Positions 36,539 to 53,673 of a DNA stretch of 64,000 nt are shown here, in pieces. The notes below the pieces were generated by a model. That model had not been told where the DNA came from, did not search any database, and saw only the letters and a program-made list of their open reading frames with translations. Position 1 is the first letter of the stretch. The number at the start of each line of letters is the position of its first letter. This DNA comes from Tenggerimyces flavus (GTDB taxonomy: Bacteria; Actinomycetota; Actinomycetes; Propionibacteriales; Actinopolymorphaceae): contig NZ_JAFBCM010000001.1 of assembly GCF_016907715.1 (NCBI RefSeq), positions 4,898,001 through 4,962,000 on the forward strand, read 5' to 3'. The translations under genes were made by a program, and so were the position numbers.

Positions 36539-36554
36539 TCGAACGCGTGTTCGA
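36539..36554 (+). promoter_or_regulatory. SOS (LexA) box inside the promoter of the radical SAM gene
   Basis: TCGAACGCGTGTTCGA matches the actinobacterial LexA consensus TCGAAC-N4-GTTCGA exactly. It fills the 16-bp spacer between a minus-35-like TTGCGT (36533-36538) and a minus-10-like TAAAGT (36555-36560), 12 nt before the ATG. Confidence 0.88.
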
Positions 36555-36566
36555 TAAAGTGGGCGC

Positions 36567-38030
36567 ATGCGATGGGACAACCTGCGACAGCCGGACCTGC
36601 CAGGGCAGGAGGCTCTGTTCGGCATGGACGGGTTCGTCACCCGCACGTTCGACACCCCGGAGTTTCGCGGGATGACGTTCTACGAGGTGCGCGCCAAGTC
36701 GGTCATCAACAAGGTGCCGGGGATGTCGCGGGTGCCGTTCTCGTGGACGATCAACCCGTACAGGGGGTGCAGCCACGCGTGTGTCTACTGCCTGTCCGGT
36801 GACACGCCGATCCTGATGTCCGACGGGCGGACCAAGCCGTTGGCGCAGGTCAGGACCGGCGACGTGGTGTACGGGACGCTGGACAACGGCAAGGACCGGC
36901 GGTTCGCGCTGACCGAGGTGCTGGCGCACTGGGCGACGACGAAGCAGGGGTATCTCGTTCGGCTCGACGACGGGACCGAGCTGATCGCGAGTGGCGACCA
37001 TCGGTTCCTCACGCCGAGCGGGTGGAAGTACGTCACCGACGACCCGGGTGTCTACGAGGGCCGCCCGTTCCTCCGGCCGGGGGAGCCGGTGAGCGGGATC
37101 GGGTTGGGGACCGACACGGCCGAGCTCGGGCTGGTCGGTGCCCGGGTCGCGGAGTCGTGCGGGCGACGCGTGCAGACAGTCGAGCCGGTGGGGGCCGAGC
37201 TGCGGATGTACGACCTCACCACCGGCACCGGCGACTTCGTGGCCAACGGGGTGGTGTCGCACAACTGCTTCGCGCGGCGCACGCATGAGTACCTCGATCT
37301 CGATGCCGGCGCCGACTTCGACAGCAAGGTGGTCGTGAAGATCAACGCGCCCGAGGTGCTGAGGCGCGAGCTGGCCGCGCCGAAGTGGACGGGCGAGCAC
37401 ATCGCGATGGGCACGAACGTCGACTGCTACCAGCGTGCCGAGGGCCGGTACAAGCTGATGCCGGAGATCCTCGGTGCCTTGCGAGACGCGCGGAATCCGT
37501 ACTCGATCCTCACCAAGGGCACGCTGCTGCTGCGGGATCTTCCCCTCCTGCAGGAGTCGGCGGAGGTGACGGACGTGTCGGTGGCGGTCTCGGTCGGGTC
37601 CACCGACGCGGACCTCTGGCGCACGGTCGAGCCAGGCACGCCGAGTCCGCGGGCACGGCTGGCGATGTGCTCGACGCTGACCTCGGCGGGACTGAAGTGC
37701 GCGGTGTTGATGGCGCCGATCCTGCCGTTCCTGTCCGACTCGCCGGCGCAGCTGGCGGAGACGGTGCGGGAGATCGCTTCGGCGGGCGCTTCGAGCATCA
37801 CGCCGATCGTGTTGCACCTGCGGCCGGGTGCGCGCGAGTGGTACTACGCGTGGCTCGCGCGGGAGCATCCGTCGCTGGTGCCGCGGTACGAGCGGCTGTA
37901 CGGCGGCGGGTCGTACGCGCCGAAGGCGTACTCGTCATCGATCTCGGGGCGAGTGCGGGAGCTGGCCAGGCGGTATCGGCTCGGTTCGCTGGAAGCTGGT
38001 GAGGCCCGTCGCGTTCCGGCTCCGCCGTAG
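36567..38030 (+). CDS. Rv2578c-family radical SAM protein interrupted by an intein
   Basis: A 487-residue precursor. Exteins (residues 1-74 and 234-487) join to a 328-residue radical SAM protein of the Rv2578c family, related to spore photoproduct lyase-like enzymes. The cluster motif CX3CX2C is CSHACVY plus C234 after splicing. Downstream features include GEHIAMGTNVDCYQRAE and the C-terminal SLVPRYERLYGGGSYAPK. The ATG follows a perfect SOS box, so the gene should be induced by DNA damage; I recall that mycobacterial Rv2578c belongs to the LexA regulon. Substrate unknown, with DNA repair plausible. Confidence 0.9.
   Translation: MRWDNLRQPDLPGQEALFGMDGFVTRTFDTPEFRGMTFYEVRAKSVINKVPGMSRVPFSWTINPYRGCSHACVYCLSGDTPILMSDGRTKPLAQVRTGDVVYGTLDNGKDRRFALTEVLAHWATTKQGYLVRLDDGTELIASGDHRFLTPSGWKYVTDDPGVYEGRPFLRPGEPVSGIGLGTDTAELGLVGARVAESCGRRVQTVEPVGAELRMYDLTTGTGDFVANGVVSHNCFARRTHEYLDLDAGADFDSKVVVKINAPEVLRRELAAPKWTGEHIAMGTNVDCYQRAEGRYKLMPEILGALRDARNPYSILTKGTLLLRDLPLLQESAEVTDVSVAVSVGSTDADLWRTVEPGTPSPRARLAMCSTLTSAGLKCAVLMAPILPFLSDSPAQLAETVREIASAGASSITPIVLHLRPGAREWYYAWLAREHPSLVPRYERLYGGGSYAPKAYSSSISGRVRELARRYRLGSLEAGEARRVPAPP
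36789..37265 (+). other. mini-intein within the radical SAM protein
   Basis: Residues 75-233 (159 aa) form an intein without an endonuclease domain. Block A is CLSGDTPILMSDGRTK with splice cysteine C75; the block B histidine is in ASGDHRFLTPSGW (H145); the C-terminal blocks run ELRMYDLTTGTGDFVANG and end VVSHN, with the penultimate His and terminal Asn of class 1 inteins. The +1 residue, C234, is also the third [4Fe-4S] ligand of the host protein. Confidence 0.93.
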
Positions 38031-51532: not shown

Positions 51533-51550
51533 ATGAGGCAGCTGCCTCAT
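51533..51550. promoter_or_regulatory. 18-bp perfect palindrome, candidate MarR operator
   Basis: ATGAGGCAGCTGCCTCAT is a perfect 18-bp palindrome in the gap between the divergent small gene/LuxR pair and the tandem-MarR gene. A looser outer repeat GTAAGGCCCCTG / CAGGCCCCTTAC flanks it. Length and symmetry fit MarR sites. Confidence 0.65.
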
Positions 51551-51721
51551 CTTGCGGAGCAGGCCCCTTACCTGGCCGGCCTTATCGGCGCTGACCTGGG
51601 GAAAGAGCGGCGTAAGGCGGGTAAGGAGGCGGCACGCCGGGAGTGCGGATCGGGCACCGCGGGACGGTCCTGGACTACTGTGACCAGTTGGGGGGAACCC
51701 GAAGGATCGAGGTTCCTGGCA

Positions 51722-52663
51722 GTGGCGCACGTACCCCTCCCCGATTGGGACTGGACCGTGGGAAATCTCCTACGCGTCGCCCAACAAGTGCACGTACGAC
51801 TCTGGACGGACCTCGTCGGTCCAGATCTCACCTCGCCGCAGTACGCACTGCTGGTCGTGGTCTCGCACGAGCCGGGCATCGACCAGCGCTCGGCCGGCGA
51901 ACGGGCCTCGCTCGACAAGGCGACGATCGCGGACATGATCGCCCGCATGGTCAGGCACGGCTGGCTCCGGCGAGCGCGCGACCCCGACGACGCGCGGCGC
52001 AACCTGGTCTCGTTGACGCCGGCGGGCTGGCGGGTGTTGCGTGAGGCGACGCCGATCATCGACGAGGTCCAGCTGCGCCTGGCCACGCCGGTGCCGGCAG
52101 ACGACTTCGACGTCCTGCTGGATCTGCTGCGGACGATCACGCACGTCGAGCTGGCGGCGCGGACGAGTGGGCAGGTGGTCGAGATCGTGGCCGGGCATCA
52201 CCGGTTCGCGATTCCGGAGCTGCCGGCGGTGCTCGGGCATCTGATCCGGCGGGCACAGCAGGCGCACGAACGGCTGTGGAGCCACGAGATCGGTGGGCTC
52301 ACCTCGTCCCAGACCGCGTTGCTGTCGGCGACGGCCGAGGCACCGTTCAGCGACCAGCGGTCGCTGGGGGAGCGGGCGCACCTGGACAAGGCCACCGGCG
52401 CGGAGATGATCGCCCGGATGATGCGGCGTTCACTGGTGTCGCGTACGCGAGACGTCCACGACGCCCGGCGCAACCTGCTGACGCTGACGCCTGCCGGTGA
52501 GCAGGCGCTGCGTGAGGTCACGCCGGGCATCGTGCGGGTCGAGTCGCTGCTGACCGAGTCGTTGACCGCGAGGCAACAGGACAGGTTCCGGCACCTGCTC
52601 GGCGCGGTGGCACGGATGCCCGCGTCCGCGCAGCCCGCCCGGCTGGCGAGCGCCTCACACTGA
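51722..52663 (+). CDS. regulator with two fused MarR domains
   Basis: A 313-residue protein made of two MarR winged-helix domains in one chain. Each half holds the same set: LRVAQQVHVRLWTDLVGPDLTSPQYALL and IRRAQQAHERLWSHEIGGLTSSQTALL; ERASLDKATIADMIARMVRHG and ERAHLDKATGAEMIARMMRRS; then DDARRNLVSLTPAG and HDARRNLLTLTPAG (the wing). MarR proteins normally dimerise, so this may be a built-in dimer. The GTG at 51722, with GAGG ahead, is used; upstream GTGs (51680) are possible. A candidate operator lies 172 nt upstream. Confidence 0.88.
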   Translation: MAHVPLPDWDWTVGNLLRVAQQVHVRLWTDLVGPDLTSPQYALLVVVSHEPGIDQRSAGERASLDKATIADMIARMVRHGWLRRARDPDDARRNLVSLTPAGWRVLREATPIIDEVQLRLATPVPADDFDVLLDLLRTITHVELAARTSGQVVEIVAGHHRFAIPELPAVLGHLIRRAQQAHERLWSHEIGGLTSSQTALLSATAEAPFSDQRSLGERAHLDKATGAEMIARMMRRSLVSRTRDVHDARRNLLTLTPAGEQALREVTPGIVRVESLLTESLTARQQDRFRHLLGAVARMPASAQPARLASASH

Positions 52664-52676
52664 GCCGCCGCGACAA

Positions 52677-52691
52677 CCAACCCGGGGTTGG
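52677..52691 (+). terminator. small palindrome behind the MarR gene
   Basis: CCAACCC G GGGTTGG, 13 nt after the MarR stop. It may end MarR transcription; it also touches the minus-35 region of the next promoter. Confidence 0.45.
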
Positions 52692-52733
52692 CGTTCACAC
52701 CGATCCATGTCTATGATTCGAACACCCGTTCGT
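52688..52733 (+). promoter_or_regulatory. promoter with a SOS-like LexA box
   Basis: A minus-35-like TTGGCG (52688-52693), an 18-nt spacer and a minus-10 TATGAT (52712-52717) are followed at once by TCGAACACCCGTTCGT (52718-52733), which matches TCGAAC-N4-GTTCGA in 11 of 12 specified bases. Transcription would begin within the box, so LexA binding would block it. Confidence 0.7.
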
Positions 52734-52773
52734 ACGACCTGCCCAACGTCAGCGACTCGGACGAAGGACAGGC

Positions 52774-53673
52774 ATGACCGATCGGTTCGCAGTGAGAACG
52801 ACCGACCGCGGCTTCGGTGTGTGGGACGCGGCGGTCAACGGATGGCACGGCAAGCGGGACGTCCCCAGGGACGAGGCGGTCCAGCTCGCCGGCAAGATGA
52901 ACGCCTCGGTGGCCGCTCGACAGACGGCCACCGGCGCGGGCTCGCGGAAGGTGGCGCCACCACGGCAGGTGCTGGTCCAGGTGCGCGACACCTGGTGGCC
53001 AGGACAGCTCGACTGGTGGGTGCGCGAGAGCGACGGCTGGCACGGTCGCGTCCGGTTGGAGGCGAACGGGGCGACCAGCTGGTATCCGTCGGACGCGCTC
53101 CGGCAGGTCGGCGACGAGCCGGACGAGGGTGCGTCCGGTCGGGCGACGGGTGGCTCCGGATCGGGACCGTCGGCCGGTACGACGGGCCCGCCAGACCCGC
53201 GCGCCGGGACCTCCGACGGGCGCTCCCACGGGCCTGACAACAGGCCGGGCAACGGGCCTGGGAACGGCGTCGCGAACGGCTCTGGTCGCCGCACGCCCCC
53301 GGGCGCAGACCGGGGCCGCGGAGCGCCTGGCGGCCCTGCGGCGCACATCCGGCGAGTCGGTCGTCGGCGGTCTCCGGTGGACCTGTACCGTACCGGGGAT
53401 CATCGGTCGGCTGGTCGTGCAGGTGGGGGCCGCGATGGGGGAAACAGGCTCGACACAAGTGGCGTGTCGAGGCGTCGATTCCGGCTGCTGCCGGACCCGG
53501 CCAAGCCAATCCGAGAACACAACGAGGTTTGCTGCCCACAACGGGTGATCATGAGCGCCGATCCGTGCTATGAAACGAGTGTGCGCGTCCTCCGATCCCG
53601 GGCCAGGATCGACCGGCGTTCGCGTCCTCGTAGTACGGGTATGAAGGATGCGGGGAGGAACAGACCGAGATGA
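52774..53673 (+). CDS. unknown protein behind a SOS-like promoter
   Basis: The first 120 residues look like a real folded protein: MTDRFAVRTTDRGFGVWDAA, two GWHG motifs (VNGWHGKRDV, SDGWHGRVRLE), VQVRDTWWPGQLDWWVRES and ATSWYPSDALRQV. A low-complexity Gly/Pro/Arg stretch follows, and the last 110 residues are Arg-rich with poorer actinobacterial codon use, so the end may be frameshifted or simply disordered. ATG after GAAGGACAG. The stop overlaps the next gene (ATGA). I do not recognise the family. Confidence 0.6.
   Translation: MTDRFAVRTTDRGFGVWDAAVNGWHGKRDVPRDEAVQLAGKMNASVAARQTATGAGSRKVAPPRQVLVQVRDTWWPGQLDWWVRESDGWHGRVRLEANGATSWYPSDALRQVGDEPDEGASGRATGGSGSGPSAGTTGPPDPRAGTSDGRSHGPDNRPGNGPGNGVANGSGRRTPPGADRGRGAPGGPAAHIRRVGRRRSPVDLYRTGDHRSAGRAGGGRDGGNRLDTSGVSRRRFRLLPDPAKPIREHNEVCCPQRVIMSADPCYETSVRVLRSRARIDRRSRPRSTGMKDAGRNRPR

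Follow-up and report, generated by a model that had tools for sequence, protein, structure and literature searches.

A LexA-type operator precedes a small two-module protein of Tenggerimyces flavus, a probable undescribed component of the SOS response

Actinomycetes rely on DnaE2 and its partners for inducible mutagenesis, and to our knowledge the recruitment and restraint of the DnaE2 complex are not settled. For Streptomyces venezuelae, the published LexA consensus is tCGAAC-N4-GNNCGa, in which the outer bases are weak (PMC9380542). Translesion polymerases have SH3-like partners in UmuD′ and YolD, which serve as mutasome subunits, and the Mycobacterium tuberculosis DinX carries a Tudor-type domain (PMC6511836). 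The Tudor domains of PcrA/UvrD, Mfd, and CarD bind RNA polymerase, and that of PcrA resembles the PHF1 Tudor domain (PMC5397179). Here, we describe a gene in a 64,000-nucleotide stretch of the T. flavus genome, contig positions 4,898,001–4,962,000 (the window), that we regard as a probable, hitherto undescribed member of the SOS DNA-damage response, because its family nearly always stands behind a LexA box and, in relatives, often beside dnaE2. The locus is laid out as follows, in window positions:

52688–52717, forward strand: sigma-70-type promoter TTGGCG-N18-TATGAT, 9 of 12 consensus bases (TTGGCG at 52688–52693, the −10 element TATGAT at 52712–52717, 18-nt spacer)
52718–52733, forward strand: LexA-type operator (SOS box) TCGAACACCCGTTCGT, abutting the −10 element without a gap
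52764–52768, forward strand: AAGGA, by its sequence a plausible ribosome-binding site, 5 nt ahead of the ATG
52774–53118, forward strand: conserved coding part, residues 1–115, of the SOS-linked two-module protein, as delimited by orthologues and codon signal
52774–52929, forward strand: N-terminal β3-α module, residues 1–52, also encoded separately as a ~49-aa paralogue
52942–53109, forward strand: Tudor/SH3-like β-barrel, residues 57–112
53119–53673, forward strand: species-specific open extension, residues 116–299 plus stop, probably not functional coding sequence

Promoter, box, and gene all lie where the original prediction had placed them. The promoter is the sole promoter-like site between 52600 and 53800 (1 found vs 0.1 expected), and because the box directly follows the −10 element it covers the expected transcription start; 40 nt separate it from the ATG at 52774. 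As had been claimed, TCGAACACCCGTTCGT matches TCGAAC-N4-GTTCGA at 11 of the 12 specified bases. The accompanying suggestion that a mismatch at the end of the box is tolerated also holds, in that all nine recA boxes read (from this genome and eight relatives) likewise deviate at the last base, which is G, C, or T, and one of them, TCGAACGCGTGTTCGT, has the identical A-to-T change.

The operator fits the S. venezuelae consensus except at its weakly conserved last base, and this protein family does not appear among the selected Table 1 targets consulted in that account (PMC9380542). Searching the whole genome (8.52 Mb, a single contig) for CGAACN4GTTCG returned 40 sites, many of them within genes, vs 9 for a reversed control pattern. 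These include sites at lexA, recA, imuA′, dinB, ruvC, and dnaB, indicating that an ordinary actinobacterial regulon uses this motif here; the perfect lexA box is flanked by lexA and, divergently, a LysM-type gene, and dnaE2 is found some 2.5 kb downstream of the imuA′ box. Scored with a matrix built from seven of the genome's own boxes (lexA, recA, imuA′, dinB, ruvC, dnaB, and a radical SAM gene), TCGAACACCCGTTCGT reaches 21.9, above recA (21.4) and ruvC (21.1), with lexA at 23.8. It ranks second in the 64 kb behind a site at 36539 that is itself a member of the training set, and the third site scores 15.0. The gene thus resembles members of the actinobacterial LexA regulon in having a promoter-proximal operator that matches the genome's own LexA sites, in a genome with the same regulon core, but differs in that no homologue of its family was found in the sampled class and phylum genomes outside the order.

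Other boxes in this genome stand before genes of several kinds. The site at 36539, TCGAACGCGTGTTCGA, is a perfect LexA box 12 nt ahead of an intein-containing radical SAM gene of the Rv2578c family (36539–38030, forward strand; NF038136, 752 bits), and Rv2578c is a mycobacterial SOS gene. Perfect boxes also precede genes unusual for an SOS response, at G000:C1 1149427 (L008), 5589793 (L093), and 8266593 (L102), namely a ComF/phosphoribosyltransferase-like gene, an unidentified gene, and a gene for an amino-acid-binding protein.

The original prediction would have fallen had the orthologues lacked the box; instead, the box is strongly conserved at orthologues and also at paralogues. Full-length orthologues occur in 8/8 Actinopolymorphaceae genomes, this genome included, and all eight genes have the box, which is a perfect TCGAAC-N4-GTTCGA in each of the 7 others, 33–44 nt upstream of the start. 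Relatives are also found in a second family of Propionibacteriales with 8–9-Mb genomes, probably Kribbella and hereafter "Kribbella-like": 21 of 22 loci of its main group carry a box with at most one mismatch (TAGAAC-N4-GTTCGA or better) 19–21 nt upstream of the start; among 27 further copies, 17 have a box that is likewise off by one base at most. The loci compared are related, so that these counts are not independent, and they stand far above a chance level of 0.003 per 90-nt window (7 sites in 171,891 background positions). The surrounding sequence diverges between the two families; the box and its position near the start are retained. From this computed operator and its conservation, we infer LexA binding and damage induction, and LexA control of the gene is very likely.

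Five of five Kribbella-like genomes checked (L201–L205) also encode a second LexA paralogue, and the boxes of the family and of dnaE2 in Kribbella-like genomes carry the altered half-site TAGAAC. This half-site may belong to the paralogue; no LexA box, of the TAGAAC type or otherwise, was found upstream of the paralogue in these five genomes.

Orthologues are 111–120 aa long, with identities of 53–57% in Actinopolymorphaceae and 35–42% in Kribbella-like genomes. The open frame of 299 aa to which the original prediction referred is real, but both coding signal and conservation stop well short of its end: conservation ends near residue 112–115, third-position GC drops from 0.88 to 0.72 near residue 115 with codon likelihood turning negative beyond, and the extension is absent from all relatives compared. 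The 299-aa length is therefore misleading, since its final 185 residues have the appearance of non-coding sequence reached by read-through. This extension (53119–53673, forward strand) is Gly/Arg/Pro-rich, and loss of an ancestral stop is a possible origin. Within the conserved part, the paired GWHG motifs noticed earlier in the first 120 residues are found at residues 23–26 and 88–91, and the conserved barrel residues are W74, W82, W89, W103, G91, R92, and R110.

AlphaFold2, run on 19 family sequences, predicts a β3-α module (residues 5–52) followed by a five-stranded barrel (57–112), with a mean pLDDT of 80 and a pTM of 0.47; the N-terminal module modeled alone reaches a pLDDT of 88.5. The barrel aligns with the PHF1 Tudor domain at Z 8.0 (rmsd 1.4, 50 residues), a level also reached by unrelated small folds, and Tudor/SH3 barrels are common. 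Structural matches to the N-terminal module are weak, the best being lambda integrase arm-domain chains (Z 4.0 and 3.2). The protein has no recognizable enzyme motif.

Searches of Pfam, NCBIfam, PHROGs, PADLOC, and PDB sequences gave no usable match to the protein, and weak matches to GspH and Vsr were rejected as chance-level. No YolD Pfam match was obtained at E up to 1 for any of 19 members, the family searches gave no DUF3553 (PcrA/DinX Tudor) sequence match, and the ImuA′/ImuB models did not match the protein. Membership among phage or anti-phage defense proteins was not supported, given no PHROGs or PADLOC match and no match to the family in phage, plasmid, and viral-contig collections. 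Among named genomes, a single-sequence scan found no relative and an alignment scan found three Actinopolymorpha species. Profile searches covering 395 genomes of the class and 396 of the phylum matched only the genome of the window, so that within this partial sampling the family seems largely restricted to two families of the order; a further two-module match without a good box lies in a third family (G262), and single Tudor-only proteins of other families have no LexA boxes. Our literature search found no publication on the protein family. The family and its companion microprotein (described below) appear undescribed in the sources searched, the operator class being already known, and the earlier view of an unrecognized protein, predicted to be damage-inducible, agrees with the lack of library matches and the conserved box.

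The companion is encoded by a second gene in this genome (G000:C1:5804283-5804429, reverse strand; L002), whose ~49-aa product corresponds to the N-terminal module and aligns to the first 45–50 residues of the window protein with 40% identity. A perfect LexA box lies 34 nt upstream, and a ~49-aa gene with a perfect LexA box is present in 8/8 Actinopolymorphaceae genomes. As a microprotein that consists of the N-terminal module only and has a like box, it could compete for or modulate the contact made by that module.

In one of the two families the gene often neighbors dnaE2. At ten Kribbella-like loci, dnaE2 (error-prone polymerase; NCBIfam NF004225) starts 60–100 nt away on the opposite strand, and each of the three intergenic sequences read there holds a single LexA box between the two starts; at about fourteen more loci, dnaE2 is 1–4 kb off and likewise divergent, usually with an acetyltransferase-like gene in between. 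This linkage was observed only in the Kribbella-like family. In other Actinopolymorphaceae the gene is convergent with an IMPase-(GDPD)-uvrB cluster, and in the window's genome it is near neither dnaE2 nor uvrB. Genomes without the family still possess dnaE2, which suggests that the family gene is dispensable for dnaE2 and that its product would be an auxiliary rather than a core subunit.

The family shares its operator class with the imuA′-imuB-dnaE2 cassette and adjoins dnaE2 in Kribbella-like genomes, but it is a separate, divergent gene, has no ImuA′/ImuB match, and is missing from some dnaE2-bearing genomes. Like UmuD′ and YolD/YqjX (PMC6511836), it combines a length of ~110 aa, predicted SOS control, and a translesion-polymerase neighbor, the last in Kribbella-like genomes with their divergent dnaE2 and not in the window's genome. 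It differs from them in that the linked polymerase is DnaE2 and not one of the Y family, in its extra N-terminal module, and in having no Pfam match. A barrel that may be SH3-like, as in these subunits, is predicted as well; its best structural matches are Tudor domains, and YolD is not among the matches listed. With the Tudor domains of PcrA/UvrD, DinX (DUF3553), Mfd, and CarD it shares a predicted Tudor fold, PHF1-like as in PcrA, whereas the window protein is small, stands alone without fusion to a helicase or polymerase, and has no sequence match to them.

Taken with the computed two-module architecture and the dnaE2 linkage in relatives, we infer, with reasonable though far from full confidence, that the protein is a LexA-repressed accessory (adaptor) of damage tolerance that works by protein contact. 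Most of the members for which net charge was computed are acidic or close to neutral, with about −5 for the Kribbella-like protein and −4 and −6 for two mini paralogues, which favors protein over DNA contact. An SOS protein that binds damaged or branched nucleic acid, through an arm-type N-terminal module (lambda integrase N-terminal/AP2-like) and a PWWP/Tudor-like barrel, seems unlikely to us: such charges are unusual for DNA binders and the Z values are low, even though the best structural matches of the N-terminal module are integrase arm domains (a third matches at Z 2.5), PWWP–ssDNA entries occur among the matches of the barrel, and one basic family member (pI 10.7) leaves room for nucleic-acid binding.

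Under the adaptor reading, LexA dimers would, without damage, occupy the box just downstream of the −10 element and block transcription. Upon damage, active RecA would bring about LexA self-cleavage, and the ~115-residue protein would be made alongside those encoded by imuA′, dinB, ruvC, and recA, as well as DnaE2, whose gene lies downstream of imuA′. The Tudor/SH3-like barrel would then contact a protein partner, likeliest a component of the DnaE2 mutasome or RNA polymerase, in the known or presumed manner of the Tudor domains of DinX, PcrA/UvrD, Mfd, or CarD or of the SH3-like UmuD′ and YolD, and the N-terminal module would provide a second contact that the ~49-aa microprotein may share, compete for, or modulate. 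The fuller version, a new, lineage-restricted SOS accessory system that pairs a Tudor/SH3 adaptor of two modules, linked with the DnaE2 mutasome, and a separate SOS-induced ~49-aa microprotein, made of the N-terminal module only, as its competitor or tuner, is offered tentatively.

A different SOS role, that of a checkpoint protein delaying cell division or development like DivS/Rv2719c or species-specific SOS inhibitors, would suit a family that is small, LexA-controlled, and lineage-restricted, as SOS checkpoint genes are; the LysM-type gene divergent from lexA in this genome already resembles that class. We consider it distinctly unlikely, as the conserved sequences show no evident hydrophobic membrane segment, the Tudor/SH3 architecture is soluble, and the recurrent linkage is to dnaE2 and not to division genes.

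The window neighbors of the gene are a tandem-MarR regulator upstream and a BNR-repeat protein. The former is a fused regulator with two MarR domains per chain, just upstream (51533–52660, forward strand). The BNR-type ORF overlaps the stop of the 299-aa ORF, as originally noted (ATGA, 53670–53673), and from this overlap the two genes had been proposed to form one unit. That they are a single SOS operon acting together is improbable: the overlap depends on a tail without coding signal, which makes the operon suggestion weak, and neither the BNR nor the tandem-MarR gene had a match in the 1.5–3 kb flanks of any relative examined, so that the BNR gene is not a conserved neighbor and its membership of the unit goes unsupported. 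Finally, a chance box ahead of an unrelated gene without an SOS role is scarcely credible, for although the reversed control predicts about 9 chance sites among the 40 in the genome and many of the 40 lie inside genes, conservation at orthologues, paralogues, and the second family contradicts it, and on these sequence comparisons chance is excluded for practical purposes.

A conserved protein that matches no known family and has a LexA-type operator, which it shares with dnaE2 in relatives, is a direct candidate for a missing partner of DnaE2, and a microprotein under a like box would make a natural tuning device.
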